From: Asparagopsis taxiformis
Lineage: Eukaryota; Rhodophyta; Florideophyceae; Bonnemaisoniales; Bonnemaisoniaceae
Length of the DNA: 64,000 nucleotides
Assembly (NCBI GenBank): GCA_030407315.1
Contig: JALQPE010002028.1
Coordinates: forward strand, 1 to 64,000
Reading direction: 5' to 3'
The first letter of the stretch is position 1. The number at the start of each line of letters is the position of its first letter. Below are positions 20,518 through 64,000 of the stretch, piece by piece. The position numbers and the translations under genes are program-made. Below the pieces are notes generated by a model. The model did not search any database. It was not told where the DNA came from and worked only from the letters and a program-made list of their open reading frames with translations.

Positions 20518-21543
20518 TTACCATGCTGATTGGCCTGTTGTTGCTCGTTCGACCCGGCTTCTTCGTAAAATTGCGGAGGAAGCTACACGGGCTGCACTGC
20601 GCTCTACGCTTACAGGAAAATAAACGGTTTCTGAACGCAACCATGCATTGTAGAATAGCCACGGTCTCACCTTACGCACTAATGTCGAATAATGAGGCAG
20701 ACATTGCTGAACATGTTTATTCGTTGAGCCTTTTCTCGCGAAATCGAACAAAACACGATCTTCCTGCAAGCTAGCGGCAGTACTTTTTATGGAACTTGTC
20801 AGCTTTGCGACATTATACAGCGTAGTCCATTGTGTCATGTAATTGCGAGCTTTGGCTGGATTGGACGTATTGAAGATGAAAGGAGAAGAGATGAGAAGTT
20901 TAGACTCTATCTCCTCCTGTAGTAGCAGGTCTTTATCATTCGACACGGTATCATGTTCTGAGAATACATCATCGGGTTCATCAGAACTATCGTGATGGAA
21001 TTCAGTAGGAACTGTCGCAACAGCAGAAGCAGGTTCACTCCTAGAAGGAAGTATCATATCACAATGGTCGGGAATGGTGGATAGGTTTTCAACTGCTGGA
21101 GGTGGCAGGGTGTTTCCCTCTTCGCTTTTTGCGTACTCCAGAGAGACAGTGGTATCCATGGGTACCAGAGCAATAGCATGCAAGCTATTGTTCCCAGTTG
21201 TAGACGTATCCAGGACAGGTGAGGAAGGGGGTGTTGCATCTGGGAGCCGGTGGTTGATAGCATTTGGATTCTGGGGAATGTTCAAAGTGCTGTCATGGTC
21301 TATTTGTGGGGGAGGAAGAGGGTTTTGCATTGGTCTCCAGCCCATGTGATGGACGGAGAAAGGGTCAGAAACTGTTCTGGTAGTCGAACGCCGAGCCCGA
21401 TTACGACCAGGGTATACATTGTTGTATCGTAGTCGTAGGCCAGTCCTAGACTTTCTCGGTCTTGCCATGTCTCGATGACTGAAAATTTGCAGGCTCTGAT
21501 ATGTGTGTGAGGGACCGCGTGTAGGCCTTGCTGTAGTGAGCAT
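20518..21543 (-). CDS. hypothetical protein, hairpin-bordered
   Basis: About 341 residues from the ATG at 21543; a second in-frame ATG at 21468 begins MARPRKSRTG and may be the real start. The frame stays open upstream to 21642 without another ATG. The N terminus is very basic (RPRKSR, RNRARRSTTR), suggesting nuclear location or nucleic-acid binding. A long acidic Ser/Pro/Asp-rich middle follows, then about 115 more regular residues (NPAKARNYMTQWTTLYNVAK and onward). I recognise no family. A 140-bp hairpin (21684-21823) sits just upstream, as for the other cassettes. The 3' end lies 40 bp from copia element 1. A second frame overlapping the last codons continues across the insertion site, so the present C terminus may not be the original one. 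Confidence 0.5.
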   Translation of the reverse strand: MLTTARPTRGPSHTYQSLQIFSHRDMARPRKSRTGLRLRYNNVYPGRNRARRSTTRTVSDPFSVHHMGWRPMQNPLPPPQIDHDSTLNIPQNPNAINHRLPDATPPSSPVLDTSTTGNNSLHAIALVPMDTTVSLEYAKSEEGNTLPPPAVENLSTIPDHCDMILPSRSEPASAVATVPTEFHHDSSDEPDDVFSEHDTVSNDKDLLLQEEIESKLLISSPFIFNTSNPAKARNYMTQWTTLYNVAKLTSSIKSTAASLQEDRVLFDFARKGSTNKHVQQCLPHYSTLVRKVRPWLFYNAWLRSETVYFPVSVERSAARVASSAILRRSRVERATTGQSAW

Positions 21544-21683
21544 AGAAACGAAACACACAGATGTAAAGCTGTAGAAAGGGAGAACATGAATGAGTCGACC
21601 GTTACAGTCTAATAGTTTAACTATGACCTTGCTCAGTTGCACATGCGACTATACTACCCATAAACAGCAATCATTCATGGAAC

Positions 21684-21823
21684 GGGAGATGTTGAAATTT
21701 GATAATTTTTTCGCTCCGAAATTACTGCAGTAAAAAGTGATCTAGGTTGGTGCACTTTGCTAGATCGCTTTTTACTGCAGTAATTTCGGAGTGTAAAAAA
21801 TTACCAAATTTAAACATCTCCCT
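21684..21823. repeat. hairpin family H1, copy 1
   Basis: Inverted repeat GGGAGATGTT...AACATCTCCC around AATTACTGCAGTAAAAAG arms and a loop with TGCACTTTGC. One of seven H1 hairpins in 21.7-33.3 kb. The words CATGGAACGGGAGATG precede both this copy and the next. Confidence 0.9.
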
Positions 21824-22580
21824 GAGCTTCCGGGCGCCGAACTTGGGCTTTTCCAACAACCTGCACCGGAATTAGCCCCATATGCAGCGCTTGAGTTCCG
21901 TGGGGCGCTCGGGACATCACTTGCTCGGAGGCTGTTATACACGCACGTTCACTTCCCAACCTTGGAGAGGAATTTCTGCGAGCACATTGAACGCGTTAAC
22001 ATCAAGGTGTATGCTGTACTTTGTACTCCGTGGGCATCATTTATGCTTTTCTGTAATCATAGTTGTAGCTTTAGTCGTATACGACTCTAATGTGTTATAT
22101 CGAGAGGGGAAGGTACGTACAGGGTAATCTCAATAGGTCATTAGGAGTATTATTGTCATAGGACCCATTCCGCAGTATATTACATGTCTATATATAGATT
22201 ATCTAGGAAGTGAAGTCGACGAGACAAACTACCAGGTAAAATAGACCAAACTTCTTTAAAGCTTCACTTCATGTACCCTACGTATGGGGTAGCTCCTATT
22301 TGGAAAGACTTGGATAGTGCATATTGCATTCCAGCCGCAGCAGGAATTCAAAAGTCTTACACGTATGTTTAATGGCTGCGATGCCTAGTCGGAATTCGGA
22401 ATGTATCGTTTACCTATAGGAATGTTGTACAAACTAGTGATTTCAAAATAATGTTGTGCTCTGTGAAGTGTTACAACATGACTGACTTTGTTGAAACAGT
22501 GATAGCTCAACCGTGCTTACGTGGCCAGGTTCCCTGGTTTGAGCTCGTCTGTAAACGCGGTATCCATGGAACGGGAGATG
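21824..22580. other. spacer between two H1 hairpins, no gene seen
   Basis: AT-rich; one short frame (21882-22127) contains a hydrophobic stretch but has no recognisable relative. Confidence 0.4.
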
Positions 22581-22703
22581 TAAAAAATTGGTAATTTTTT
22601 TCGCTCCGAAATTACTGCAGTAAAAAGTGATCTAGGTTGGTGCACTTTGCTAGATCGCTTTTTACAGCTGTAATTTCGGAGCGAAAAAAATTACCAAATT
22701 TTA
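22581..22703. repeat. hairpin family H1, copy 2 (3' border of the oxygenase cassette)
   Basis: Arms of GGTAATTTTTTTCGCTCCGA type pair with the complement ending ATTACCAAATTTTA. It lies about 225 bp past the stop of the oxygenase gene; copy 3 lies at the other end of that gene. Confidence 0.92.
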
Positions 22704-22927
22704 GGACCTCAACGCCAGGGGTCCAGGGCCCTTCGCGACTTACGAAGGCACACTGGTTGCAACTAGTATACTACCATTCTTTACCTTGCCATGCACCAGA
22801 AGGGGCGAGGGCAGAGGACTATCAACGGAAGGAGATTCTGACAAACTACAAGTAGACTATAGGAATGTGGGAGAACATGGGAACAAGAGAAATATCAATT
22901 TAGAGCAAGTTATAGTTCATATGCTAT

Positions 22928-24499
22928 CTATTCAACTGTAATATACTCTTCGCTACTACTTCCCTCTTCCTTATCACTATCCGACCCGTAGTCGTGATCG
23001 AAATCGTAGGACTCCGGCAGAGCATTGGGGTCGTCACCCAGCCCTGGTGCATAAACTAGGTCGTTGACGAGCTCAGAGGAGACACGCGCAGCCATCGTAT
23101 GGACTCGAATATGGTGACCATACGGCATTCCAGTGTTGGAAAGCCTGGTCTTCACGAAATCGTGGTCCTGCCATCCTGGACCTGCATGTTCCAAGTCTCC
23201 ACGAGAGACAAACACAGAGAAGGGAGGAATCCAGACCAACTTGGGAATGAGATGGGGCCAGACGTCCAGGAAGGCCTTACGTGGGGAGTTGAGGAAGGTA
23301 TGACTGCGAGGTCGTACCAGAATCGGGGAACCCACTGCACCAGTTGCAATGAATGCATAGTCAGGATCTGGTGCAGGTTTACCGTAGTATCGGTTGGGTT
23401 CCCCTGGCGGTGGACCGGGGTATATGAAGTCCAGATGAGGTATCTGACGATCACAGCACGACCCTGTGAGCAGCATCCGAAGACCTGTTCTGCCAAACCT
23501 GAGCTTGGAGCCTTCCTTGAATCCCTTCAATGAAGAAACGGAATCTTCTAAGTGGAGCTTTTCTGCTATAATAGCGAGCAGAACATCCACAGAGACCTTA
23601 TCGTGAGCTATTGGACCAGACGCAAGCGTGTCCAGGTCTTCGACAACGGCCTTGCAGGGGGTCATGTACCGTTGCCGAGACGGCCCCCCTTCTGCATCCT
23701 TGGCTGTAGAACCGGAATTGAGAATCGAAATCCACACACCTTCCTCGTTTTCCGAGAACTTGTTGGCGAAGGCTGACAGAAAGTCGTGGATACTAGACCG
23801 CACTTCCTTAGCTCCTAGTATGTTCTCCAGGACAACATATCCATCAGAATCAATACTAGCCCTTGCCCGCTCGAAATACACAGCCCTCTCGATGGACGAA
23901 GAACCAGCCATGGCGTCAATATCCTCCCTCAGTTCCTCCACCTCCCCTTCCGTCAACAAGAACCCAGAGTGGTGTTCAGGATGAAGTAGGCTCGAAACTG
24001 AACGGACGAACGATTCAGCTTCGGCCACGGAAGTATTCTCCAGGAGGTAGGCAGGTGGACTCGGCTGTTCGTCCTCGTACCGGTGGACCAGAAACCCCTT
24101 CGAAGTCACCTTCGATTTCGTGGGGGTTTCTTCCTCCTCCTCACTCTCACCTTCATTGTCACACTCCTTCTCACCCGAAGACGGGGGTTGACCAGGAAGC
24201 GGAAAGGAGGGAGGAGGGGAAGAAGTGCTGCCAAGAGCGATGAGCTTCTCTGCAACGGCAGCACTTCTGGTCTTCGACCGAGTAACACGGGCCGGAAGCG
24301 GACTAAAGGTATCGTCCCTTTTCCTCTTTTCCCCTCGGCGGGTACTCTTGGAGGGTTTCTTGACCTTAGACCTTGGCCAGCGATATCGGAGTCTTCTCTC
24401 CCACGGTGCTCCGCTTGCTCTTGTCCCCGCCTTCCCCCCTGTCTTGTTGTGGATCCTCCCTTGCGAAAAGGATTAAACTTATCACCATCCTACGCTTCT
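22928..24499 (-). CDS. C-terminal 2OG-Fe(II) oxygenase-like part of a split ParB/oxygenase gene
   Basis: This frame is open from just after a TAG at about 24500 (a possible splice acceptor) to a stop at 22928. No ATG fits a separate start; the 393 codons from 24109 begin at GTG. The fold-defining residues can be lined up with the intact gene at 59.6 kb: HLD (metal ligands, in QIPHLDF), the distal histidine in GDLEHAG, and the arginine in HHIRVH, probably binding 2-oxoglutarate. A Lys/Arg-rich stretch (KRKRDD) and an acidic, Ser-rich segment precede it. The C terminus is acidic (SDSDKEEGSSSEE). The metal set looks intact, but upstream breaks may leave the gene dead. The substrate is unknown; a DNA base is inferred from the setting. 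Confidence 0.65.
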
Positions 24500-25687
24500 T
24501 GTAACGTGACCCCTGTAAGAGGGGTCCAAGAAGGGGCGTCATTGGGTTGACGACCATCATAGCACCGACGGGAGCAGACGAAGACCATATGGTCTTCGTC
24601 TGCTCCCGTCGGTGAGCGAGACATATGTCTCGCTCACCTTGATTCAGGTACTTGATGGGGATGAGATGGTGGACGCGGGGATAGTCGCACAGATTGTGAA
24701 CTGGCTTAGAGTTGCATGCTGTGCATTTGTGCACAGCGGCAGAGCCGGGAAAGCGACAGTGCAGTCCAAGAGAGCAAGGGAAGGGGCGTGGAGTAGTTTC
24801 GTCGGCCGGAATGCGAATGGCACGCGAAACGGGATACTCCGCACCACCCCCCAACGGTTCAGAGACTTCCGCAGTTTCGGGGTTCTGCTGTTCACCCATA
24901 GGAGTGGGGGGAACTGGAGCAGGGGAGGGTGGTGACACAGCCATAGGAGACTTGGGGGGAGAAGATGGAACCCGGGCAGCGGAGCGGAGGGTGTTGAGAC
25001 AGCCATGGGAGACTGAGCAGGAGAGGGATGAGGAGAAGGGGTGGTGGGATTGCCTGAGGACCCGGGAGCATTCTGCTGCGTTTGTTCAGGTGGAACAGCA
25101 GCAGAAATGTCCAAGGGACCAGTTTCATCCTCTGGGAGGGTCTCAGAGGGAAGGGGGACAGGGAGAGGCTCGATGATAGTTTCTCCGAACTGTGTCGGAG
25201 AACGATCCTTGCCAGGCACTTGCGATGGTGATCCTGGCGGAGGGAAAGGTGAAAGAGGAGCACTCGTTGAAGCCCTCGCACCCTCCTCCATTACCACGTC
25301 ATTGGCTGGAGTGGTATTCGCAGCAGAGTCCAACGGCTCAGTACGAGGAGGAGTCTGTTGCTTCGGTGCAACAATGAAACGATGCTGGATGACCGAACGG
25401 AAATCTTCTATACGAAGATCTTGGTTCTCCGTTCTCTTCGGCACCGGCTCCTCCTCGTACTGAACCATACGCTTGAACACGGATTTCCAGGTCGGGATCA
25501 TTTCCTTTCCATCCGGTTCAAGGTCTTCCAAGTCTGCCAATTGCTCCGTACTGAGGTCAACCATGGGTGCTAGTTCACGGATGACCTCGTAGAAATCTCT
25601 AACGTAATTGAGATATGTACGGAGCTGGAGACCTGGGATACGTCCAAACGAATGCATCAGCAGCACAGACCGGTAGTGAAGAGGCAT
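24366..25687 (-). CDS. middle part of the split ParB/oxygenase gene (frame broken near 24.95 kb)
   Basis: Two overlapping frames: 25687-24644, then 24944-24366. The first starts with helical sequence (SFGRIPGLQLRTYLNYVRDF) and runs into a Pro/Ser-rich linker. There the sensible frame moves to the second within G/C homopolymers at 24905-24960. The second frame then has a Cys/His-rich block (CSLGLHC, KCTACN, VHNLC, CLAHRRE) that may bind zinc; it occupies the place of the CTACSGPACC cluster in the 947-residue gene. After KYLNQ a GTGAGC donor-like site is followed by two perfect palindromes (24563-24638), so an intron may start there. Homopolymer sequencing error, real decay or unrecognised splicing are all possible. 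Confidence 0.45.
24563..24638. repeat. two overlapping perfect palindromes (52 and 28 bp)
   Basis: 24563-24614 is a 52-bp perfect palindrome starting CACCGACGGGAGCAGACG with CATATG at its centre. 24611-24638 is a 28-bp palindrome starting GGTGAGCGAGAC, also centred on CATATG. On the minus strand the second begins with a GTGAGC splice donor after AATCAAG, so both may lie inside an intron of the oxygenase gene. Confidence 0.9.
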
Positions 25688-25698
25688 TTGACCATCAA

Positions 25699-26749
25699 TT
25701 AACTAGCACGGTCTTCAGCCTTCGTGAATGCTGTGTCTTTTAGGACCAGAAGGCTGATGCCGACCTCGTTCTCCTTCCTCCCGGAAGCCATCTTGTAGGC
25801 TGCGTACGTGCGAGGCGAACGTCGCATATTCATAGCCACATTGACGATGGACGTCACTGTACTCTTCCGGAGGATGCCAGAAAAATGACGTTGGAAGAAC
25901 CAGCTAGACAGCTGCGAAGCCGTCATGTTGGCCAGATTCCTATCCCCAGGTTGAGCGTACTTGAGGTTGCAATTGTATATGCTAATGATAGCATGTATAC
26001 GATCCCGGATGGTGGTTGGCAAAACAGTGTGAACAAGCTCATTCAACCGCTGACTGAGGTAAAGGACATCCTCCGTAGTCATTGGCGTACCATCCGGCCT
26101 CAAGGCTTCCTGGACAGGAACGTTGTCCACCACGGAAGCTAGACGCTCAACCTGTTCCTCCTTCCCCTATAAGAAAATGAATATGTACCCAGGATATACC
26201 TCAGATGAGCCTATGATGTACGTGATATCTCTACTGTGCGCAAGAGATACTTCGCTGATTTCCCAAAGATGAGCGTAAAGACATCTCAGGTCCATCTTTG
26301 GTGTATCGCTATGCGGCCATCAGCTGAAGAGCGATTGTTCCTTATCGGTACATCATAGAAACACCATGTCTGTCATATGTTCATCATACGGCCATCATTG
26401 GTACATCTTCGAGTCTTACTGGGTTCGCCCGCACCAGAGCTCCACGACGATGAAGACCGTCCGCTATGTAGTAGCGTGTTCCATCGGGCCCAAATGGTAG
26501 ATTTACCACAGTCATGGAGCCCACAGAAGAGGTCTGAAAGCCTTCGAGAACCATCTTCTGGAACAGCACTTCAACATGAGAGACATCAACCTCGCGGGAT
26601 GTTTCTTCCGTGGCATGAATGTCAGCGATCGGAAGTTTCGTTTCCCTGAATAGGTAGTTCGAAAGCGAGGTGCCAGTGCGGGACATGGCAGGGATGGTGA
26701 GCTCTCGAGCTGCACTGGTGGTCGACTGAGGGATAGTACGCGGAGGCAT
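25699..26749 (-). CDS. N-terminal ParB-like part of the split ParB/oxygenase gene (two exons)
   Basis: Exon 1 (26749-26420) starts at MPPRTIPQS and carries a ParB/sulfiredoxin-like signature, YYIADGLHRRGAL, comparable to VLDGAHRSK in the methyltransferase at 55.4 kb. A 253-nt intron (26419-26167) has clean GTAAGA and TTTTCTTATAG borders. It joins ANP to GKEEQVERL in phase 0, so exon 2 (26166-25699) continues in frame. Exon 2 is helical (RDRIHAIISIYN, SWFFQRHFSGIL) and ends at a TAA at 25699. There the next frame resumes after a short overlap with stops in both, probably a lesion. The ParB-like fold in known proteins binds or cleaves DNA or nucleotides; here it may target the oxygenase to DNA. 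Confidence 0.6.
26167..26419 (-). other. spliceosomal intron, 253 nt
   Basis: Minus-strand donor CCCA|GTAAGA at 26419 and acceptor CATTTTCTTATAG ending at 26167. Removal keeps the frame (phase 0) between the ParB-like exon and the helical exon; the intron has stops in that frame. Confidence 0.7.
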
Positions 26750-27247
26750 GTTGTTTTTGCCGAGTGGGTAGCGCGGAAGTGTAGTGAGAAAGAGAGGGGA
26801 TAGGAGAATAGAGATGGTTGAGGAGAGATAGACTGTCGCTTTAGAGAGAAAGTGGGAGGGAGAGTGTGGTGGATAGTGCCAGGGAGATTGGCAATGAAGT
26901 GGTAGAGAGGATCCCTGAAAGGTTGGCAGAGAGAGGTAGGTAGAGGTGGAGAGATTGGTGTAGGGAGTGAAAGAAAGAAAGAGAGTGAGAGCGGAACAGT
27001 GCGTCTCGTAGGGGGAAGTCCTTGATCGGGATTGATTTTCAGGTGCAGAAGAAGCAGAGAGAGTAGTAGATGAGTAGGAGCCGAGAAAGAAGAAGTGGAT
27101 GGTCGTGTAAGGTATGCACTTGAAGGTTGTCCAAACAGGACCGTGGGACAGCACAATATAACAACTAATGCGCAAAATATCCGCCGGTTGCGTCCTAATC
27201 AATCAGAACTCATATTGAACGGTCATGGAGAGAATGGAGGATGGGCA

Positions 27248-27370
27248 TTAAATTTGGTAATTTTTTTCGCTCTGAAATTACTGCAGTAAAAAGTGATCTA
27301 GCTTTGTGCACTTAGGTAGATCACGTTTTACTGCAGTAATTTCAGAGCGAAAAAAATTACCAAATTTTAA
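27248..27370. repeat. hairpin family H1, copy 3 (5' border of the oxygenase cassette)
   Basis: TTAAATTTGGTAATTTTTTT...ATTACCAAATTTTAA, with CTGCAGTAA arms. It lies about 500 bp upstream of the ParB-like ATG. Confidence 0.92.
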
Positions 27371-27384
27371 GCGCATCTTGAGCT

Positions 27385-28062
27385 GACCCGTGGCGCCTTT
27401 TCGGCGACTGCTCTAGTCTGCACTAAACACGACCGTTGCTTCGATGATTTTATTGAGCAAAACAGAATGGCTTACGTTTACTTTCTACAATAAACGGTCG
27501 TTGACGCAGCTTGACTGTGTCTATCAAGTTGTATGCGTCACTGCCAATGTGCCCATTTCAGCTGGCTCAGAGTTATTCATCGAGTACGGACACGAAATAC
27601 TTTTCTGTGTAACCAGTACCCTGTCAGGAGAAATGTTGAGAAGTAAATGTTTTCCCATCTTCCTTTACACCCTGTTCATAGCCTTGTAGTTCAAGTACGT
27701 GTATGTGAGCCAGGAGGGAAATCCTTGCACAGGTCCACTAAACGACGTAAAATCCGAGCGTAAAATTTAGTAATTGTTTTGGCTGTGAAATTACTGCAGT
27801 AAAAAGCGATCTAGCTTGTACACTTAGGTAGATCGCTTTTTACTGCATGCAGTACTGCAGTAATTTCAGAGCCAAAAAAAATTACCAAATTTTTTACAGT
27901 CTAGCTTGTGGCGGCTGTGGTGCCTTTTCGGCGACTGCTCTAGTCTGAGCTCTAGTCTGCACTCAACACGACCGTTGCTTCAATGATGTCATTAAGCAAA
28001 ACGGTATGGCTTACGTTTACTTTCTACAATAAACGGTCTTTGACGCAGCTCAACTGTGTATG
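27385..28062. repeat. direct repeat pair, about 140 bp (27385-27520 and 27917-28062)
   Basis: Both copies share CTTTTCGGCGACTGCTCTAG, ACGACCGTTGCTTC and CTTTCTACAATAAACGGTC. Each directly follows an H1 hairpin (27248-27370 and 27761-27896), so the repeating unit is hairpin plus tail. Confidence 0.85.
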
Positions 28063-28749
28063 ATGGTTCTGTACCACACCTTGTGGGTGTTACGATTGTT
28101 TGCTCGCAAGCGCAAGTAGCTCCACTAAGGGAGGAACAGACCAGAACATGTATTCGTGGTCATGCTTCGTGCATTACCATACGGTGCATTTAGATTAGTT
28201 CATGTACATCCGGGTGAATATAGCGATGGAAAAGTAGAGGAACAACTACATTGCATTGCTCGCTAGCTTGCGTTCCGATGGTTGAGATGCCGGAAACAGA
28301 GGGTATTGGTCCGCGGTATGAGGGGAGATGTGCAAGGCAAGTGCCACAGGCGCCACAGGCGCCACAAGCTAGACTGTAAAATTTGGTAATTTTTTTGGCT
28401 CTGAAATTACTGCAGTACTGCATGCAGAAAAAAGCGATCTACCTAAGTGCACAAGCTAGATCGCTTTTTACTGCAGTAATTTCACAGCCAAAAAAATACC
28501 AAATTTTACGCTCGGATTTTACGTCGTGTAGTGGACCTGTGCAAGGATTTCCCTCCTGGCTCACATACACGTACTTGAACTACAAGGCTATGAACAGAGT
28601 TTAAAGGAAGATGGGAAAAAATTTACTTCTCAACATTTCTCCTGACAGGGTACTGGTTACACGGAAAAGTATTCGTGTCCATACTCGATGAATAACTCTG
28701 AGCCAGCTGAAATGGGCACATTGGCAGTGACGCATACAACTTGATAGGT
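27521..28749. repeat. 1.2-kb inverted duplication containing the SET 3' end and two H1 hairpins
   Basis: 27521-27896 is an inverted copy of 28377-28749, nearly identical with one single-base indel and a few substitutions. The left arm therefore carries a backward copy of the last SET codons (VVCVTANVPISAGSELFIEY) plus its 3' flank, and each arm ends in an H1 hairpin (27761-27896, 28377-28508). The 480-bp centre has the second direct repeat and no gene. Confidence 0.9.
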
Positions 28750-29349
28750 TGATACAGAGGTCTCATCAAGAACTTCTTGTATGGGGGAAGAGAAACTAAC
28801 ATTAGCAGAACGCGACGGACGCTCAGTTCCCTCCGCTGGGTCCACAAACGTTGGGTCGTTGATTTTCGATGCCGCACAATACTCGAATGGAACAATGAAG
28901 ATTGGACTTTCAGACGTGGATGGCATCAGACATTTCACATTTGCATCCTTAATTTGAACAGCGTACTTCTGGAAACGCTCAATTGAGAAGGAAGTAGGTC
29001 CAGTACCGAAAGTCTTCAACTTCGCCTTGTACAAATCCTTGTAAACCACAGATCCGAAATAGTACCCTACGATATCCCCAGGATCAATATCCACTCTTGC
29101 AAACAGGCCGTCACCAGCCGAAGGAATCGTTGACGCTGCGACGTATACATTGTGTGCCATCGCGTCTATTGACAGCAGGGTTTTAATATCCACGGTAGAT
29201 AACAAACCCAGCAGCGATTGTGGCCACTTATCAATGGGTTGTTCTGTCAACTTCTTGTGCTGGTCCGGAATGCACCAGATGCCAGTAAGAAAGCTGATGA
29301 GGTGGGGCGGAAGTTTGGTTGAAATGGGCACTTTTGAGGTTGTCTTCAA
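28657..29349 (-). CDS. SET-domain protein or SET part of a methyltransferase-SET fusion (copy 1)
   Basis: A SET-like fold is indicated by VAASTIPSAGDGLFARVDI followed by PGDIVGYYFG, then INDPTF..SANVSFS in place of the usual NHSC..PN, then VPISAGSELFIEYGHEY. Known SET proteins methylate lysines with S-adenosylmethionine. The usual NHS motif is not canonical here. No ATG lies at the conserved start: the first in-frame ATG is at 29160 (MAHNVYVAAS). Conserved residues lie upstream of it, and the frame stays open back into the methyltransferase frame. A fusion with the preceding methyltransferase is therefore likely, with a frameshift between them. The homologue at 58347-58940 keeps the same order. 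Confidence 0.7.
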   Translation of the reverse strand: MKTTSKVPISTKLPPHLISFLTGIWCIPDQHKKLTEQPIDKWPQSLLGLLSTVDIKTLLSIDAMAHNVYVAASTIPSAGDGLFARVDIDPGDIVGYYFGSVVYKDLYKAKLKTFGTGPTSFSIERFQKYAVQIKDANVKCLMPSTSESPIFIVPFEYCAASKINDPTFVDPAEGTERPSRSANVSFSSPIQEVLDETSVSTYQVVCVTANVPISAGSELFIEYGHEYFSV

Positions 29350-32140: not shown

Positions 32141-32251
32141 TACTTGTGAGGTGAAGAGAAAAGGGAGAGCAGGGAGAATGGAAAAAGATGAGTGCGGAAA
32201 GTTTTCGACGATCAAAGGACGGACTGGAAGTCCACGCCCTCCAAAGTCCAC

Positions 32252-37038: not shown

Positions 37039-37087
37039 AGTTGCTCCACGAAATAAAGATACTACAACGCACTATCTGCAATTTTGT

Positions 37088-54711: not shown

Positions 54712-55442
54712 AATGGGTATTCCCAGGAAAAGAATGGAAGAGGTATCGACTGAGGAAACAGGAAAGATGACGAAACTGTACAGCTTGTATCCGTGTGGAA
54801 TGATAGAGAGAAAATTGGTAGGTTACTATTTTTATACTTGCATAACTCGTAACGGTTATAAATTACTAACAACTGTCCCAAGCGACATGGGAGACCAACA
54901 TCGTGATGATCATCTCTCTTGAACATTCATCACCATATAATAAAGATCTTATTCCGAGCTGCTCGAAGCCATTACCAGTAGATTGGGTGTATTTTTCGCT
55001 GTGGCAATATAACGGAACCTAGACGTGTATGTATAAACAGACGCAGGGATCGAGAATGATGCAGTGAAATCAATGTGTATATTTATATACTGGTTGTAAG
55101 AACGAGTCTACAAGTTCGAACAGAAGATGAAGTCCTCTCAAGAGATTGGTTTTGAAATCTCCGATGGCAGATTTCAAACTCAATCTCTCGAGGGGACTTC
55201 AAATTCAAAACAAAAATGGAAATGTCCGTTGGCGAAATAATTGTATTGAAAGGCCGCCGAAGAACCTAATTATTCCTCATTACGTACCCTACCTAGCCAA
55301 AGTATACCTGAAAATATTCAGGTTAACTCTTTAACTGTGCATTTAAGGTTTATCAAGATTGTTGCCGAAGGTTTTTAACGGCAGGTAGGAGAGAAGATTG
55401 TTTTCTGCTGGTGGCTGATTGAGGTGAAGAATCTATTTCTCG
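54712..55442. other. intergenic region between divergent cassettes
   Basis: Upstream of both family B copy 3 (minus) and the methyltransferase (plus), so it must hold two promoters; TTTTTATACTTG near 54830 and TATATTTATATAC near 55076 are TATA-like. A hairpin lies at 55129-55200. Confidence 0.4.
55129..55200. repeat. 72-bp hairpin bordering methyltransferase cassette 2
   Basis: GAAGTCCTCTCAAGAGATTG pairs with CAATCTCTCGAGGGGACTTC, and TTTGAAATCT with AGATTTCAAA, around a short loop. Sequence unlike H1 but in the same position relative to the gene. Confidence 0.9.
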
Positions 55443-58328
55443 ATGGCCTCTGAGAAGAGAAATCCAGCGAGCACCTCTCGGCGTCCCCTTCATGGTGAGC
55501 GGCGCAATGGGCTATTGCACATCGACCCATTCAAGATCAAAAGATATGTCGAGATCCGAGAAATCGACTGCAGGCACGTCGATGTTATTGCCGAGAGCAT
55601 TCAGGTTTACGGCTACAATGACAACAACCCAATTACCGGTCGGATCATTGCCGGTGAGGTAGAGGTGCTGGATGGTGCGCATCGTTCGAAAACTGTAATC
55701 AAGCTCATAGAGAACGGTGAGCTTCCGCGTGATTTCACTGTTCCTATGATTGAAGAAGAAGTCGACATATCTCCGATTACAAGTGCTGCTTTCCTTCTAG
55801 ATAGTGTGAAAGCATCAAACGCGAACGATATGGCATCCAGGCAGAAGAGGATGACTTTCATTGAGTACCTGAATCTTACTTTGGATCTTAGAGATGGGTA
55901 CTGGGAGCGAAACGCAGGTGAAAAACAAGGAAGCTCAAGCATGGTTACAATTCGCGACGTGAATATGCCATCCATTAGGCGATGGCTCGCCGTGGGATCT
56001 CAGCGCGAAGATTTGGCAGAAACTGTGCTGAGGCAGCCACAGTACGAGAGTTGCTTGTCAATTCTTCGTGTGCTTCGCCCCTACAGTCGCATAGAAGAAC
56101 CCAATCCCAAAATGGTTCGCTGTCTGTGGCAGTTGTTCTGTATTGTATGGGGAAGGCCGGTGGAAGTTCAGAACAATTTTGCGATGAAGGAGTTTCCCAC
56201 ATCTCTCGAGAAAAGAGCATCAGTCGGCGAGCAGTTGTTTGGGATGTCTACAAGTGGTGAAATTGCTTCTCCATTGTGTCGCGAAGTCCTCACCTGTGAG
56301 TATTTTCGTTCTGGAAGAAGTGCACAGGGTAGAACATTAACAGAAGAAGACAAATTATTTGGAAGGCTGATGTTTATGATTTCATTTGTGCACATTGCCC
56401 TCACTAGACGCAGAAATGCACCCATTCGCCGGGGTAGGAAGCGTCGTAGAACTGGGAGGGATACAGAGACTTCTACATTCGCCCCTTTCCAGCGCACAAG
56501 AGCAAACGGAGAGTCTGTGGGTGTCGTTTTGGAAAGGGTCATGTCTGCCTGGGATACAACAGCGATGATTCTGGGCTTCGAAAGCGCCTACATGATGTGT
56601 CGCCCATACATGTTTTTCGACTCTGAGAAATTCCAATTCATCTGTCTTGCTAATCGTACTGACGGGTGGGCACATCCTGACCACTACTCAGATCTTCTGC
56701 TTCCGTCCCCGGTAGTGAAACTCCGCGAGAATGCAGGTTATCCAGGCACTTTGGATATCTCTGTTGATGCAAGGTTGAGGTCTTTGACAGAAGCCGTACT
56801 AGTGTCTGTGTATGACTGTATGATAGGCATTGATGTATTTGGATCAAGTACGAACCAGATGGAAGGGCTGCGCACTAAATTTTTCCATCAGCCTGACCGG
56901 TTTGGATTGAACGCCTTCATCGAAGCAAGAATTGAACAATCCATCGCACTGGATGGTCACGAAAGACTCAAGGTATGGAAGAACTGGAACCGTGAAATGC
57001 GTGTGAAGCCAGTTGATGTCTGCGACTTGAAAATTCTCTACGAGACTGAACAGCGCAACGCAGCATCCAGATCTCTTTCTCGTCTTGAGTCGAATGAATC
57101 AATGCAGCACAGCACTCGCCGTTTAGGTACAGGTGGAAGGAAACCTACCAATGACTCTGGATCCCAGTATACATCCAGCATGGATGGGAGGGCTTCGTCC
57201 GCAATGGACACGGTTATGCAAGATGTTGCGGAGGATACACCGTCAGCGGAGGCAGTGGGTGAGGAAGAGGGGGTACCGGATCATATTGTGCAATTGAAAA
57301 AGGTCATGAAGAGATTTTGCGTGGCTTACAACTGTACAGCCTCGAGGTTAGTGCACCAGGTTAACACTGATTCCATTGGCATGCTTTCAGGGAATACTAT
57401 TGGTGGACAAGCACAACTTGTGCTCACAGATCCACCCTTCAACACGCGGAGGGAGAAAGGCAAGACCAATTCAGAGTATGATGACATCAATAGCGCACAA
57501 ATGTTTCGTACTGGAAAGGACATTTCTCGAATGCTGCGCCCTGGAGGACATGCCCTGATATTTTCCAGTATCAAACAGTTGGTTGGGTGGGGAGAAGCTC
57601 TTCAAAATGCAGAAAGCGGGGAACAATCCATGCGTACAGACGATGTTCCTCTCATTCTAAGCCGTCGTCCCTACGTATTCATCCAAAACCCAATGAACAA
57701 ATCGTGTTCATTACACAACATTCACGAGTTTGTTGTGCACAGTTTCAAACGTGGGATGGGAGCTGCCGCGTTTGAAATGGTTGATTATTCGTTGCATAAC
57801 CGTGACCTTTCACGACATCCTGGGTACGTGAACGCAATCGACAACTGCCCAAAGCTCGGACCTGGTGAGTCATTGAACTTCGAAGACAAAAGGCTACGTG
57901 CGGAGCAGAAGCCTCTGTCCATACTTCGAGAGCTTATTTCAAGGTTTTCAAAGCCAGGAGACATTGTGGTAGATCTATTCTCCGGAACGTATTCTACTGC
58001 AATAGCTTGCATGACAATGAGAGATGGTCTGTATCGCAAGTTTATTGGATGTGAAAAAGACGCCACATGCCATGGATCAGCTCAGCCGTTGTTGCTGGAT
58101 TGCTTTGTTAGGCAAGGTCGAGATGGAGTTTTTGGGGAGGCAACCAAAAATGACATATCGAGTATTCTCGCTAACAAAGAATGGAATTACTCGATAAGGA
58201 GCAATGTAGGGAGTGAAAGACTTCGACATCGAAGTGATGCGCCTGATGGATTCCCGTCGGTATCTTCACTACCACTGCATATGTTGCGATTTGTCTCCTC
58301 TGTTGCGCGGGATCAAAGCATGCTCTGA
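55443..58328 (+). CDS. ParB-like/DNA methyltransferase (beta class), copy 2
   Basis: 961 residues, the intact counterpart of 29346-32140. Residues about 30-110 are ParB-like (IREIDCRHVDVIAESI, then VEVLDGAHRSKTVIKL). A helical region with basic RRGRKRRRTGRD near 335 and an acidic, Ser-rich linker follow. The methyltransferase part has DPPFNTRREKG near 661 (motif IV), GGHALIFSS, and IVVDLFSGTYSTAIACM near 842 (motif I). In known beta-class enzymes this order goes with amino methylation of adenine or cytosine. DPPF for DPPY is tolerated in some family members. ParB-methyltransferase fusions are otherwise known mainly from bacteria and phages, so acquisition by transfer is likely. TGA (58326-58328) is followed in the same frame by the SET gene. 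Confidence 0.85.
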   Translation: MASEKRNPASTSRRPLHGERRNGLLHIDPFKIKRYVEIREIDCRHVDVIAESIQVYGYNDNNPITGRIIAGEVEVLDGAHRSKTVIKLIENGELPRDFTVPMIEEEVDISPITSAAFLLDSVKASNANDMASRQKRMTFIEYLNLTLDLRDGYWERNAGEKQGSSSMVTIRDVNMPSIRRWLAVGSQREDLAETVLRQPQYESCLSILRVLRPYSRIEEPNPKMVRCLWQLFCIVWGRPVEVQNNFAMKEFPTSLEKRASVGEQLFGMSTSGEIASPLCREVLTCEYFRSGRSAQGRTLTEEDKLFGRLMFMISFVHIALTRRRNAPIRRGRKRRRTGRDTETSTFAPFQRTRANGESVGVVLERVMSAWDTTAMILGFESAYMMCRPYMFFDSEKFQFICLANRTDGWAHPDHYSDLLLPSPVVKLRENAGYPGTLDISVDARLRSLTEAVLVSVYDCMIGIDVFGSSTNQMEGLRTKFFHQPDRFGLNAFIEARIEQSIALDGHERLKVWKNWNREMRVKPVDVCDLKILYETEQRNAASRSLSRLESNESMQHSTRRLGTGGRKPTNDSGSQYTSSMDGRASSAMDTVMQDVAEDTPSAEAVGEEEGVPDHIVQLKKVMKRFCVAYNCTASRLVHQVNTDSIGMLSGNTIGGQAQLVLTDPPFNTRREKGKTNSEYDDINSAQMFRTGKDISRMLRPGGHALIFSSIKQLVGWGEALQNAESGEQSMRTDDVPLILSRRPYVFIQNPMNKSCSLHNIHEFVVHSFKRGMGAAAFEMVDYSLHNRDLSRHPGYVNAIDNCPKLGPGESLNFEDKRLRAEQKPLSILRELISRFSKPGDIVVDLFSGTYSTAIACMTMRDGLYRKFIGCEKDATCHGSAQPLLLDCFVRQGRDGVFGEATKNDISSILANKEWNYSIRSNVGSERLRHRSDAPDGFPSVSSLPLHMLRFVSSVARDQSML

Positions 58329-58346
58329 AGACTTGCCGAAGTCCCA

Positions 58347-58940
58347 ATGAATGAATGGGGCGTAGAAGATTTAGGCAAGGTTTTCTCTGTTGACCCTGAG
58401 ATGATCCTTGCAGTAGATGCCTCCTTTCACAACGTTATTGTTGCTGCATCGACAGTTCGAGAGGGAGGATTGGGGGGTTTTGCCGCAGAAGATTTAGAGA
58501 GGGGCTCTGTTGTTGGATGGTATAATGGGACAATTTTATACGGGAAGATTGGGGAGAATGAACCGCAACGCAGTCGCTTGTACGGACCGGACGGGTTCGG
58601 TTGTACTGGTGAAAGATTCCAAAACTTCAATATGGAGATGGAGACCAGTGTCATCGGAGAAGAAGCACCGGTCGACAAGATATATCTTGTACCAGCGGAA
58701 TACAATGTCTGCAGCTACCTCAACGACAGTAGGACCATTGACGGAATGGAGAGAGTTGCAAATGTGCAACGCAGAAAAAATGCGGAGTTCCGAGTTCACA
58801 AAGACGTCAATCCTACTTGCGACTTCAAGTATGCAGTAGCAAAACCTGATCTCATCCTAGCGCAGGTTGTAGTAGATGTTCGAGCTGGGGAAGATATATT
58901 CGTTGACTATGGATCGCGCTACTGGACTGCAGAGAAGTAG
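58347..58940 (+). CDS. SET-domain protein (copy 2), in frame with the methyltransferase
   Basis: 197 residues. SET-like blocks: VAASTVREGGLGGFAAEDL, then RGSVVGWYNG (about 52-61). YLNDSRTIDG..ANVQ (about 113) replaces the NHSC..PN motif, and VRAGEDIFVDYGSRYW lies at the end. It starts 18 nt after the methyltransferase stop and in the same frame, so only one TGA (CTC TGA AGA) and six codons separate the two. Either the SET part is made by readthrough or reinitiation, or an ancestral fusion was split by a nonsense mutation. Copy 1 at 28657-29349 keeps the same order. Lysine methylation is the known activity of the superfamily; the substrate here is unknown and the changed NHS motif leaves activity uncertain. 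Confidence 0.75.
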   Translation: MNEWGVEDLGKVFSVDPEMILAVDASFHNVIVAASTVREGGLGGFAAEDLERGSVVGWYNGTILYGKIGENEPQRSRLYGPDGFGCTGERFQNFNMEMETSVIGEEAPVDKIYLVPAEYNVCSYLNDSRTIDGMERVANVQRRKNAEFRVHKDVNPTCDFKYAVAKPDLILAQVVVDVRAGEDIFVDYGSRYWTAEK

Positions 58941-59630
58941 GACAGTTTAGGCGTCCAATTACAGATATCAAGAGTACCATCAGTAATAAAAAGTCTTGCA
59001 TCTGAACTCGTACAACGTTGTAATACTACAATCTACCTGAGCGATAATAGCAGACTTTCATTTGCTGAGCGGTGCGAGTCAGCCCACGCCCAATGATAGT
59101 GCTGCACCTGGGCTTTGCCATGCCAAAATAATACCGGGTATTATTTTGGGTATGGCCAGCCCAAGTGCAGCTCGGCCATTGGCTGTCATGAACGCAGCGG
59201 TAGCCAATGGAATTGCTGCACCTGGGCTTTGCCATGCCAAAATAATACCCGGTATTATTTTGGGTGTGGCCAGCCCAAGTGCAGCCACGCTATTGGCTGC
59301 CAGGTTTGCATCTCAACTATAGTTATTATACTAAGTAGAACAATCCAAGACCTTGGTTACTCGAGTGATGTGGAATTGTGGCAGTCTTGCAAAACTGTGC
59401 CATGCATGTAGGAAAGGAAAAGAGATGAGTCTGTACGATGTAGGGTGTAGAAGCTATGCTGGGTGAGAGGTAGAGGAACTCTAATAGTGCAGTAGACTGA
59501 CCGTGCTAATATTTTCAAAGTCATGAATAGGAGTAGATTTAGTTGTGGTAAAGGAAGTATACTACCGAAGCTAGCTTAGGATTAGCAGATGCTGCCTGTA
59601 GAGGGAGAGGCAAAGCAGTATTCTTGCAGA
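58941..59630. other. spacer with hairpins between cassettes
   Basis: Holds the hairpin block at 59101-59285. The remainder is AT-rich and shows no gene; it is the 3' flank of both neighbours. Confidence 0.5.
59101..59285. repeat. hairpin family H2: two copies plus a palindromic spacer
   Basis: 59101-59171 and 59215-59285 are nearly identical 71-bp hairpins starting GCTGCACCTGGGCTTTGCCA, with the centre AATACCGGGTATT in one and AATACCCGGTATT in the other. The 53 bp spanning 59167-59219 form a third hairpin (GGCCATTGGCT / AGCCAATGG). A related hairpin lies at 62905-62998, on the other side of the oxygenase gene. Confidence 0.93.
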
Positions 59631-62474
59631 TTATCGCGCACTAGGTGCATCCCAGTAGTTGACTGTTTCGATAGAATCCGCCAATTCTTCTTCGTCACTT
59701 AAAAGGTAGAGATGAGAACGAACCGGAAGACCATATGTTAGGCGATTTTCCGCTGAACTACTGAATCCTTTGCCTCCATGGTAGAAGTCACCACGACCGA
59801 TGAAGAGAGAATACGGTGGCACGTATATGTCCATAACAGGCGTCTTGTACTTCTCAGCGTCTGCACGCGTCAAACAGACGTGGCTGAAATACGCTCCACG
59901 AAGCCAGAACCCATCAGCCGCGCTTGCCATCAGAAAGTACGATCTTCCAGGAGGGAAATCGGAATCATTGATGACCACCGGTAGGTCTGTGTGCAAGTCT
60001 TGATCTGGAGCACCATCAGAGGTCAGCAAAAGACGTAAACCCGTTTTAGGAAAGGCCACAGGCTCATGGATTCCTAGGCCCAAGTACATTAGCTCGGCAC
60101 AGATTGCTTTGCCGACCTCGAGAATCATCTTGTTCTTGAATTGATGTTCATCCACCTGCTCGAGATCGTCGCAAATCTTCTTCCTTGAGATAGAGAACCT
60201 TCCCAAACGAGAGGCCTGTTGCTCTGCTGTTACCTCACCCTTGTTTCGAATCTGATGCCAGGGATCATTGGAACTGTCTTCAGCAAAAGAATGAACAGGT
60301 TTGAACTTCTGGGCGAAGAACGTGAACAGTTCATGTGCTGCGTTGCCCACTGTCGAAGAACAGAAGATACCACTGAGTACATGGGCACCCAAGAGATTGA
60401 GAGTTGACCTAGCTGTTGCAAAGAACTTCTCTGCACAACAAGCTGGACCACTGCACGCCGTACAATTCATATCGACAGCAGCTGCACTCAAAATCTCCTG
60501 TCGGATTGTTTCGTACAGCTTGCTGTCGATATAGTACTTGACCCTAGAGTCTGACGGTATGGTGTTCGGGAGGATATCCATAATCCGTTCATCGACTACC
60601 CTGTCGGGGAGGGGATTTTCGTGCTCATCGCTGAACAATGGAATCTCCTCGGTTGAACGTTTAACCGTACGGTTAACTTCCAGTCTTCTGTGCTTCGGAA
60701 GGGGCTCTTCGGACTCTTCTACCTCCGACTCTGCCTCGTTGTCGCCAACCCGTGAACTCTCCGTTCTCTGCCGTTTCGACCTGCGAAGTGTCTCGACTGG
60801 CTCATTCACCGCAAGCGGTGGTGCATTGTTGAGAGGGAGACGGAGGAGAACAGATCCCAATTGCTTCTCAGAACCTGCCACAGTGGCATCAGGGGTTCCT
60901 TGAGCCTGCTCAACTGCAGGAACGGAAGTGGCAGGAGCAGGAGGGGTGGAAGGGGCGGGAACGGAAGTGGCAGGAGCAGGAGGGGCAGTAGGAGCAGGGG
61001 TAGAAGGAGTAGAAGGAGTAGAATGAGCACGAGGAGCAGGAGGGGTAGAAGGGGCAGGAGGAGTAGGACCAGAACGGGTAGAACGGGTAGAAGGGGTAGA
61101 AGGCTCATCTGATTGGGGCGTAGATGGCTTCGGCGCATCTTCAGATGGCTGTTCATTGTGAACAATGACCCTTTGGTCTTCTTCCATGTCCACAACGCCC
61201 GTGGAAAAGCGAAGCTGCTCATACATTTCGTCGGAGACGAGAGCATGCTTCGTACCGCTGTTGTCGTCGGTATTGAAGTACAGGAGGGTCTCAGCGATAC
61301 TGTTCGCAATGACAGTCTCCTTTCCTGACCCAGTGTTCTTGAGCTCGGAGTAGAAATGCTCGAGCGGAGGCTCCATCATTTTATGAGCAGCAACCGGCTC
61401 AGAGATCTTGAACACTTCAATTAAAACACGAACGAAAGGATAACCAAATCCTCTTGTCGTCCTGCTCAACTGACGCAGATCTCTCATGCGAGTCCAGAGA
61501 GCTGTGATCAGCAAGATGAACCTTTGCTGATACTCCGAGCCGCGACGGAAGTCTGCCATGAAAACGAGATCCATGTTGCAGCCATACATGTCTACGGACT
61601 GCTTGAAGACATCGTCGTTGATGTCACGGCCTTCTTTAACGGCCCTTTCCTGTTCCGCAGCGAGAATGTCCTTGGTGAACATGCTCGGTACGGAACTCCA
61701 GAACTCAAGCGCTTTGTTGTTCACAGTCCGGAAGCCTTTCGCAGCAGTCACGTGCTTGTTGATGGCTTGGTAGCCCAGTTTCGATATCGACAACTGGCTG
61801 TCCATGATGACCTGAATGCACTTCCGATTCGGTTCACCCAGCATGTCCTTGGTCGTGAGCAGTTGGACCACAGAACACACTCGGTCTGCCAAAGAAACAA
61901 GGGCAACATCATGTGTGAGTGTGTTTGCTTGAATGGACAGCCCGAGTACTTCAAAAGGTGTGAAGTACTCATCGGAGACTTCTTCTGTCCCTGGGCGCCT
62001 AATCAAAGCCACATCGATGTTCCTGAATGAAGCAGCATACGGATGTTGCCCTTCCGGGTCTTCACGAATGCACTTCTGGAGAGCCGCAACGCAATGGCCA
62101 CCATCGATGTAGAACGTTTGAAGGGTGGGGGTTGTGCTGCCTTCACTAGGAAGGAGCATTTTGCAGGCAAGGATTCGGGAGATTGAGGAGGTGAATCCTT
62201 CCCTCAGGAACTTCTCCTTCAGCTCAAGCACTCTCCCTTCCCTAATATGACGAGAGAATAGGGGAGGTCTGTGCAAATCCAAGGGAGACAACCTGTGGTC
62301 AGCTTTGGGACAGTCTGACAACTGAACCTCGGCGGTGACAGAGTTATCGTGACCAGGGCTGCGAGAAGGGGCGCGAGAGCGAGAAGGGGCGCGAGAGCGA
62401 GCGGAGGCCCGACCGCGAGTCGAAGCGCGAGCAGGGGCGGGGGCAGAGGGTTTGGAGCGAGTGCGAGGAGCCAT
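59631..62474 (-). CDS. ParB-like/2OG-Fe(II) oxygenase fusion protein, intact
   Basis: 947 residues, ATG at 62474. The N terminus is Arg/Ser/Pro-rich (RASARSRAPSRS). ParB-like signature FYIDGGHCVAAL lies near 120-131, followed by a long helical region to about 440. A Thr/Ser/Pro linker (STPSTPSTPAPT) runs to about 540, then basic RRSKRQR. A Cys cluster CTACSGPACC lies near 668. The C-terminal oxygenase domain has PKTGLRLLL, the metal ligands HTD near 829-831, the distal histidine in GDFYHGG near 894, and the arginine in LPVRSH near 915. This HxD...H...R set defines 2OG-Fe(II) oxygenases, the superfamily that includes the TET/JBP base hydroxylases and AlkB. Relatives: 1.6-3.64 kb (relic), 22.9-26.7 kb (broken) and the right-edge gene. 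Oxidation of methylated DNA is inferred from the methyltransferase neighbours and is untested. Confidence 0.8.
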   Translation of the reverse strand: MAPRTRSKPSAPAPARASTRGRASARSRAPSRSRAPSRSPGHDNSVTAEVQLSDCPKADHRLSPLDLHRPPLFSRHIREGRVLELKEKFLREGFTSSISRILACKMLLPSEGSTTPTLQTFYIDGGHCVAALQKCIREDPEGQHPYAASFRNIDVALIRRPGTEEVSDEYFTPFEVLGLSIQANTLTHDVALVSLADRVCSVVQLLTTKDMLGEPNRKCIQVIMDSQLSISKLGYQAINKHVTAAKGFRTVNNKALEFWSSVPSMFTKDILAAEQERAVKEGRDINDDVFKQSVDMYGCNMDLVFMADFRRGSEYQQRFILLITALWTRMRDLRQLSRTTRGFGYPFVRVLIEVFKISEPVAAHKMMEPPLEHFYSELKNTGSGKETVIANSIAETLLYFNTDDNSGTKHALVSDEMYEQLRFSTGVVDMEEDQRVIVHNEQPSEDAPKPSTPQSDEPSTPSTRSTRSGPTPPAPSTPPAPRAHSTPSTPSTPAPTAPPAPATSVPAPSTPPAPATSVPAVEQAQGTPDATVAGSEKQLGSVLLRLPLNNAPPLAVNEPVETLRRSKRQRTESSRVGDNEAESEVEESEEPLPKHRRLEVNRTVKRSTEEIPLFSDEHENPLPDRVVDERIMDILPNTIPSDSRVKYYIDSKLYETIRQEILSAAAVDMNCTACSGPACCAEKFFATARSTLNLLGAHVLSGIFCSSTVGNAAHELFTFFAQKFKPVHSFAEDSSNDPWHQIRNKGEVTAEQQASRLGRFSISRKKICDDLEQVDEHQFKNKMILEVGKAICAELMYLGLGIHEPVAFPKTGLRLLLTSDGAPDQDLHTDLPVVINDSDFPPGRSYFLMASAADGFWLRGAYFSHVCLTRADAEKYKTPVMDIYVPPYSLFIGRGDFYHGGKGFSSSAENRLTYGLPVRSHLYLLSDEEELADSIETVNYWDAPSAR

Positions 62475-63385
62475 TAAAGGATGAGGGAAAGCAGAAATGG
62501 AGAGAAGCTTGATTGAGTGTACGACCCCGATAACGACGATACAGAGACGATTAAGATAGATTTATTTCGCTACTGCAGTCTGATAAAGGATCAAACGTGA
62601 ACAATCCGTTTCAACTCTGATTTCAATTTTTTGTTTATTTCTAGACCACTTGACTCAGATCAAGAGTAATACTCGAAATTCAGTTAATTTCTGCGGCCAA
62701 ATACAATCGCTATACGACGAGTTCATACTCAAAGTGGCTAAACAGGTACGAGTTGGTCATGGTGATTACCCCAAAACCACTCAATTAATAACTACATAAT
62801 GCTTAAGTCACATACTTCCCAGCATTTTGCACCAACTCGTGGAGCTGATGCGTACATACCAAATGCGTCTGTATTCAACATGAACCACGAATAAGTGGGC
62901 TTCGGCCAATGAGTGCACTGCATCTGGCTTGAGAAACTAGGACTAATACCCGGTAATATTTTGGCCTCCCAAAAGCCAGGTGCACCAACGCCATTGGCTG
63001 AGGTTATCCGGACTACCCCCGGGCAATGGGGTTGGTGCACTTGGTCTACACCCACCCAACTTTATACCCGGCCACACTCCTACTGTTCTCAGGAACTGAA
63101 AATTTTGCCGGGGATAGTAAACGATGTAATATAATACCAGGTTTTACTATCTGCTATCGATTCTTGCATCTACTGAAGAGGTTTAGAATTTGCAGCTCTT
63201 GTAGGTAGACCTTTCTTTGGAGAATAGCTTTCTGCATGTGGTGTTTGTTACATTTGTGAAGTTGATCGGACTATATAAAGAATCCATGCAGTATCTCTTT
63301 TATCATGTTCTATTGGAATTGTGTTTATTACTCTACGGATTCATACCCAACTAAGGCTTCAACACGGCTGGACAGATGCCCTTCA
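62475..63385. other. spacer with an H2-like hairpin between two oxygenase genes
   Basis: Promoter region of the 947-residue gene and 3' flank of the right-edge gene. Contains the hairpin at 62905-62998 and, after it, further ACCCGG/CCGGG words without a clear second hairpin. No gene. Confidence 0.45.
62905..62998. repeat. hairpin family H2, divergent copy
   Basis: GCCAATG...CATTGGC outer arms, TGCA..CTGGCTT pairing with AAGCCAG.TGCA, centre AATACCCGGTAATATT. It borders the oxygenase cassette opposite to 59101-59285. Confidence 0.8.
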
Positions 63386-64000
63386 TCACTTCAATTTCGA
63401 ATTGCCCTCCCAATGTCCAACGACATATTCTCCTTCTTCACTTTGATGCTGCTCAGTTTTGAGGAATATGTGAGATCGGATCGGTAACTTGTATTGAAGA
63501 CCCTTATCGCTCTCAAAGCCTTCCTCGTGGTGATAAACATCCCCTCGGCAGACAAGAACAGAATATGGTGGTACTTCACACCTCTTCATTGGAACTCTGT
63601 ATAACTCTTTGTTGGGATGGGATAAACAGACATGACTGTAGGGTGCAAGCACGAGGCCGAATCCATCTGCGCCGCTTGACATCATGAAGTAGGATGGCGG
63701 AGAAGGGGGACTGTTAACTTCATCTATTCCCACTTCATAGTCTGTATGTCCAGCACGAGGTTTAGTCCGCTCTCCAGTCAGCACTAAAGTAGTTCCAGTG
63801 CTGGGGAAGGCCATCGGGTCCTTCCCACTAGTCCTCAATTCCAAACCTTCCGCACAAATACCTAGACCGAGCTCAACAATCATCTTCTTCAGATAGAGAT
63901 TATTATTGTTATCCTCGAGGTCATCACATAAGCTCTTCCGCTTTGTTATAAAGATTCCTCTGCCCTTCTCACCTTCTTCATCAGAGTTTTTCCCATCCAT
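63386..64000 (-). CDS. 2OG-Fe(II) oxygenase-like protein, C-terminal part (runs off the window)
   Basis: 204 codons up to the window edge, where an ATG happens to fall; the gene almost certainly continues. It keeps the metal ligands (AGHTDYE), SYFMMSSGADGFG, VPPYSVLVCRGD, the distal histidine in DVYHHEEG and the arginine in LPIRSHIFL. Among the four relatives it is closest to the relic at 1.6-3.64 kb. It follows the same direction as the 947-residue gene, with an H2 hairpin between them. If complete it should show a ParB-like domain about 2 kb beyond the window. Confidence 0.75.
   Translation of the reverse strand: MDGKNSDEEGEKGRGIFITKRKSLCDDLEDNNNNLYLKKMIVELGLGICAEGLELRTSGKDPMAFPSTGTTLVLTGERTKPRAGHTDYEVGIDEVNSPPSPPSYFMMSSGADGFGLVLAPYSHVCLSHPNKELYRVPMKRCEVPPYSVLVCRGDVYHHEEGFESDKGLQYKLPIRSHIFLKTEQHQSEEGEYVVGHWEGNSKLK

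Follow-up and report, generated by a model that had tools for sequence, protein, structure and literature searches.

A CACTA/EnSpm-like transposon with a methyltransferase–SET gene and oxygenase-like genes in the red alga Asparagopsis taxiformis

Giant EnSpm elements with accessory genes have been reported from the red alga Bostrychia (Petroll et al. 2025, as described in the accessible part of PMC12477816). The same text describes Sola1-1_Ec32 of Ectocarpus, a 21.5-kb DNA transposon encoding a 1104-amino-acid (aa) protein with ParB-like and N4/N6 amino-methyltransferase domains, and says that proteins of this kind occur in red algal transposons. In fungi, according to the accessible portion of Kojima 2025 (PMC12730594), TET/JBP genes have been captured by EnSpm, Plavaka, Kyakuja and other transposons, and SET genes in HarbingerS and MuDR are mentioned. 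Here we analyze a 64,000-nucleotide stretch of Asparagopsis taxiformis DNA (GenBank assembly GCA_030407315.1, contig JALQPE010002028.1, positions 1 to 64,000; hereafter the window), contig C1902 in a genome of 141.5 Mb and 3156 contigs. Matches in this genome to the phycobilisome linker family (13, on 10 contigs) and to the chlorophyll-binding family (10, on 8 contigs) speak for a red alga and against a fungal host; a Synechococcus control genome also matches both, so that taken alone they leave room for contamination, but contigs C1598 and C38 carry both families, and C1598 has in addition a copy of a repeated gag-like gene. The window is composed of fragments of at least three large, high-copy repeat families, E1, E2 and E3, and not of the hairpin-bordered cassettes envisaged in a preliminary description made from the sequence alone. 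For E2, precise ends, short target duplications, empty sites and a large number of recent copies show it to be a transposon. Genome-wide searches were run on the alga's own genome, and the counts given below are best-scored places out of larger sets of first-look candidates.

Taking the evidence as a whole, we consider it very probable that E2 is a CACTA/EnSpm-like element with its own transposase and a modifying cargo, most likely serving anti-silencing or transposase labelling, that its palindromes are internal, and that E1 and E3 are related families. E2 is thus a rich variant of an already published kind, and the earlier suggestion of an undescribed system holds only in part, since giant red-algal EnSpm elements with accessory genes and algal ParB-methyltransferase transposons are in print (PMC12477816, in its accessible part). 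By the description given there, and not gene by gene, the Bostrychia elements and E2 are alike in being red-algal, EnSpm-type and very large, with several accessory genes; a SET fusion, two oxygenase-like paralogues, an A/B gene pair and a palindromic array may, or may not, be among their published features. Sola1-1_Ec32 shares with E2 its large size and an amino-methyltransferase but belongs to a different transposase superfamily, and the accessible text mentions neither SET nor oxygenase for it. The fungal TET/JBP transposons resemble E2 in CMCT-type termini and short target duplications, and they carry a DNA-oxidizing dioxygenase, to which the oxygenase-like proteins of E2 may correspond. 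They carry TET/JBP proteins, whereas the oxygenase-like proteins of E2 have no Pfam match; in the accessible portion of PMC12730594 ParB has no mention and methyltransferase cargo is unmentioned, whereas E2 carries a methyltransferase. N4CMT of bdelloid rotifers is, like the E2 enzyme, an amino-methyltransferase of bacterial type that occurs in a eukaryote and is linked to the machinery of histone methylation, but it is a gene of the host, said to take part in silencing transposons, and not transposon cargo (PMC8885841, in its accessible part).

A transposon with a DNA-methylating enzyme fused to SET, a domain of the histone-methyltransferase type, and with oxygenase-like proteins besides would unite a complete epigenetic system in one mobile unit. 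No literature title that we found names a SET-fused methyltransferase and an oxygenase in one transposon, which is weak evidence because subscription papers were barely covered. E2 allows one to ask whether transposons write their own marks or only erase those of the host, and whether red algae genuinely use N6-methyladenine (6mA) or N4-methylcytosine (4mC) as a mark; the near identity of its copies and their mostly open methyltransferase–SET frames make it a tractable case.

Precise ends of the E2 transposon

The window holds a truncated copy of E2 at 53608–64000, which matches the copies on contigs C285 and C2634 piece by piece at 96–99% and is a single element, interrupted by copia on one side and by the end of the window on the other. 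Both reference copies were read at length, and the unit common to them measures 23,741 bp in C2634, from CACTACTGAGTTTGAGAT to ATTTCAGACACAGTAGTG. CACTA/EnSpm elements in the wide CMCT sense are defined by CA..TG termini, target duplications of 2 to 5 bp and, in the transposase, an H(3-4)H motif that precedes the last E (PMC12730594, accessible portion). E2 terminates in CACTACTG...CAGTAGTG, which agrees with CA..TG and differs from the Plavaka termini, TGT..ACA or CATCA..TGATG. A 2-bp target duplication was found in all three copies with both ends read (GT in C2634, TA in C2142 and CA in C2115); this lies within the wide-sense range and differs from the 3 bp of canonical EnSpm.

Left termini were seen in 10 further copies, two of them at contig ends, and the flanks of the other eight are all distinct from one another and from those of C285 and C2634. 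Among 10 right-end stretches the terminus is visible in four (C1572, C522, C2142 and C2115); the C2680 contig ends within it, C1579 stops short of it, and none is visible in C385, C2295, C706 and C388. The contigs of two of these copies, C1572 (L038) and C522 (L041), end within a base of the E2 terminus, indicating that the assembly breaks at the element. CACTA elements carry subterminal repeats, and the E2 ends may be likened to these in their richness in TACTGC/GCAGTA, with 12 occurrences in the first 500 bp and 18 in the last 1.3 kb.

Insertion of the C2634 copy was examined with a 400-base query made by joining its two flanks and removing one GT. All 40 scored places (302 candidates) cross the joint at 94–100%, the top score being reached by 13, showing that the insertion is precise and that an empty site exists; that site is a repeated gag-like gene. 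A paralogue of this gene lies in the window at 45253–47190 (84.5% identical to the gene holding the insertion) and was rejected as the empty site, since homology ends at 47190, short of the joint.

Copy number was estimated with the 961-aa methyltransferase frame of the window, for which 48 matches, the window's included, were scored over the full query at 99–100% (3438 candidates). Thirty copies were read with 1.5-kb flanks, L001 being the window copy and L002 the reference; the other 28 show 0–2 differences from L002 in 2,895 bases, and L001 is 12 bases shorter. For E2, copy number, terminal repeats, duplications and empty sites support, as far as anatomy and mobility go, the preliminary description's idea of a mobile or selfish system in which a methyl writer, SET and oxygenase-like proteins are combined; they do not support its hairpin borders.

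Transposase and cargo of E2

Six genes make up E2, in the order A (507 aa, plus strand), B (462 aa, minus), methyltransferase–SET (1169 aa, plus), OX (minus), X (minus) and Y (1233 aa, minus), and all six are open when C285 and C2634 are taken together. OX has 949 aa in C285 and is broken in C2634; X has 1174 aa in C2634 and, starting at an ATG further on, 1111 aa in C285; and the 1233-aa minus-strand frame of Y in C2634 corresponds to a shorter 1090-aa frame near the contig end in C285. The window retains B at 53602–54711 (minus; its 3′ part lost at the second copia element, and 96.5% identical to the 462-aa B over 368 residues), a frame-broken methyltransferase–SET gene at 55443–58940 (plus; 961 + 197 aa), a 947-aa OX at 59631–62474 (minus; an N-terminal D-G-x-H motif and an oxygenase-like C-terminal part) and, at 63386–64000 (minus), the C-terminal 204 aa of X, the 1174-aa OX paralogue, at 98% identity.

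The structure model of the 1233-aa Y protein resembles RAG1/Transib. In an alignment of 11 sequences D601, C620-x2-C623 and E909/E913 are invariant, and the catalytic residues among these are predicted. H888 is invariant and H896 nearly so, with 7 residues between them, where the CMCT definition has H(3-4)H. PF18759 is matched by one of the 11 members (5e-4), and a Foldseek search with the transposase gave no match at E ≤ 0.001. As a transposase of the RAG1/Transib fold, Y would cut at the CACTA-type terminal inverted repeats and move E2 as a unit. Contig C1931 has two E2 transposase genes, at 111837–115535 and 126615–130313, in opposite orientation and about 11 kb apart. Transposase_21, a family of CACTA type, has 36 matches in the genome, several of them in frames about 1000 aa long, and other EnSpm families are probably present.

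Methyltransferase and SET form one frame of 1168–1169 codons in 27 of the 30 copies and stop early in three, at 961 in the window, 1021 in L008 and 1135 in L009. The pair is therefore one gene, broken in the window; open frames speak for recent intactness and not for function. An intact copy matches PF01555 at 1.2e-13 and SET above the Pfam cut-off, whereas the window's broken copy matches N6_N4_Mtase, with SET slightly below the cut-off. DPPF followed by DLFSGT in the predicted protein gives the order DPPF/Y ahead of F-x-G, which is that of beta-class DNA amino-methyltransferases. Six database relatives (24–43% identity) all have the methyltransferase domain; SET is annotated in P0002, P0004 and P0005 and also matched by P0003, so that the architecture is not private to E2.

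OX and X are paralogues, 37% identical over the C-terminal part and 32% over an N-terminal part. Oxygenases dependent on 2-oxoglutarate (2OG) and Fe(II) are expected to have an HxD...H facial triad and a downstream R, and H231-x-D233, H302 and R322 are invariant in the alignment of OX, X and a related E1 protein; at the level of sequence, all three are candidate 2OG/Fe(II) oxygenases. Proteins of the OX/X type gave no Pfam or PDB sequence match to an oxygenase or to TET/JBP, and a homologue search with OX returned nothing at E ≤ 0.001, OX itself included, perhaps an effect of low-complexity words in the query. By tblastn four oxygenase-like stretches, a relic at 2.5–3.6 kb among them, are related, as the preliminary description had recognized. 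Behind the ParB label for them stand D-G-A/G/L-H-R motifs recognized by eye (D-G-G-H-R in OX of C285), and no Pfam ParB profile matches any of the E1 or E2 proteins searched; nor does Pfam support Tudor for B or TET/JBP for the oxygenase-like proteins. E2 A is weakly related to A1, the A protein of E1 (3e-10), and E2 B has no BLAST match to the B proteins of E1 and E3, B1 and B2, with 23% identity in a forced alignment.

From what is known of these families, the methyltransferase would write 6mA or 4mC, SET would methylate a lysine, and OX and X may oxidize a base or a protein. The cargo could then mark the element's own DNA and chromatin against host silencing, or label DNA for Y. An alternative is that it hypermodifies element DNA in two steps, methylation and oxidation, for transposition or protection and not for anti-silencing. 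Such two-step hypermodification is known from phages (PMC12730594, accessible portion), and writer and oxygenase-like genes stand together in E2 and in the window's E1. We regard this alternative as possible but doubtful, the oxygenases being candidates by motif. A bolder version, and a somewhat less likely one, would make E2 and E1 complete write-and-oxidize systems, in which methyltransferase–SET marks DNA and chromatin and OX and X oxidize that mark to a base new to eukaryotes, read only by the element's own transposase or by A/B.

Palindromes inside E1 and E2

Strong hairpins do occur in the window where the preliminary description had placed them, but the borders of E2 are formed by terminal inverted repeats of the CACTA type, and the hairpins sit within the elements, at constant positions. 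In E2 a palindromic array, H2, lies at 59090–59301, between the 3′ ends of the methyltransferase–SET and OX genes, and a second palindrome lies between OX and X at approximately 62942–63071, as placed by alignment to an E2 copy (copy a) in which it is 74–76% related to the first. All 30 copies have H2 0.8 kb beyond the 961-aa frame, with between one and six units, each about 114 bp long, in the 1.5 kb read; longer arrays are found elsewhere, such as one of about 4 kb on C718. In E1 the hairpin H1 is, with its flanks, a fixed internal part of the element at 33150–33310, and the best 40 of 752 candidates match it, flanks included, at 98–100%. Its distance to the B1-like gene is 2.19–2.20 kb in 11 of the 12 contigs with both (63.8 kb in the exception, C1844), and its distance to the E1 right end is 4.42–4.47 kb in all 17 cases. 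Further hairpins of the H1 family lie in E1 at 21692–21813, 22583–22702, 27240–27377 and 32513–32604, and E3 has one at 42119–42240.

These observations bear on the proposal that the hairpins are themselves the mobile borders, as miniature inverted-repeat transposable elements (MITEs) or fold-back units carrying single cassettes. Hairpins do flank OX and other genes on both sides, and H1 and H2 are many-copy. One count weighs against our own interpretation: among the H2 matches listed, on 40 contigs, a methyltransferase copy is listed for 19 contigs and neither methyltransferase nor Y for the other 21, so that H2 copies may exist outside E2. Hairpins at the ends of mobile units, the mark of a MITE or a hairpin-bordered cassette, are not what E2 displays, and both the constant H1 distances and the position of H2 led us to reject independent MITEs; we judge the hairpin-border proposal very unlikely. 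Within a CACTA/EnSpm-like E2, the palindromes would be internal arrays between genes, and their location between gene ends suggests that they act in transcription termination or insulation.

E1, E3 and the rest of the window

The other two families, E1 and E3, are likewise high-copy and carry related A/B pairs. E1 belongs to a family of giant repeats and occupies 20477–38035, its left side cut by the first copia element and its right terminus at 38035; E3 follows at 38036–43022, with its right end near 43022 and its left part absent from the window. A query spanning 37600–38500 found 40 scored places: the window, 21 of E1 type and 18 of E3 type. The E1-type places end at 38035 (13), 38036 (6), 38038 (1) or 38039 (1), and all 18 E3-type places begin at 38036, showing that two high-copy families abut exactly at 38035/38036. 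At least 32 places match E1 from 20524 to the query end, and a 51-bp piece (20475–20525) up to the copia joint is displaced by about 127 bp in many of them. A hand comparison of C1847, C2941, C2746, C544 and C1986 gave 17.2–17.3 kb between that point and the right end of E1, where the window has 17.5 kb; from these similar spans the inner content of E1 is probably shared.

Genes of E1 in the window are the 393-aa oxygenase-like protein at 22928–24109 (minus; tblastn to E2 OX 5e-13 and to X 1e-19, with the shared HxD, H and R), an open reading frame at 26384–27202 (minus) with a D-G-L-H-R motif, ParB-like by eye only and without a Pfam match, a methyltransferase and SET at 28657–32251 (minus; three frames here; PF01555 4.5e-11, PF00856 2.4e-6), A1 at 33524–35206 (plus, 560 aa) and B1 at 35344–37038 (minus, 564 aa). 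With the E2 gene, both methyltransferase–SET occurrences that the preliminary description had noted are confirmed by domain matches. E3 contributes A2 at 38134–39777 (plus, 547 aa) and B2 at 39928–41667 (minus, 579 aa). A1 and A2 are 43% identical and B1 and B2 37%, so that two of the proposed A/B pairs stand; the supposed third B is E2 B. B2 has at least 78 matches in the genome, in two groups: the listed rows comprise 51 at 68–100% and 27 at 38–41%, the latter B1-like, the window's B1 not among them. No transposase was seen in the E1 and E3 portions examined.

Similarity among the four E3 copies read ends right after GCTCATGCTG. Two of them, L067 and L068, have a common flank and may be one locus seen twice. 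That the E2 copies stem from a single locus, multiplied by faulty assembly or by haplotype duplication, is scarcely credible. They are nearly identical, and several contigs end in or at the element, yet they differ in flanks at all 10 left ends with flanking sequence, carry agreeing duplications in three of three cases and have an empty site elsewhere.

Two copia elements interrupt the window. The first, at 15010–20476, has its 3′ end at 20476, and its 5′ long terminal repeat was not found. The second, at 47204–53607, has the gag-like gene on one side and E2 B on the other; its flanks mismatch, pointing to ectopic recombination or an assembly joint. A scan of the window for long-range terminal repeats yielded chiefly the arms of hairpins and pairs of weak similarity. 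At 14606–14798 there are perfect direct repeats, spaced at 19 bp. Nested inverted repeats at 3997–8878 include a 41–42-bp palindrome (CTTACAGCAAAGTCATCG..) present several times, as well as the longest inverted repeats of the window, at 4.0–6.9 kb, which sit away from the genes discussed here.
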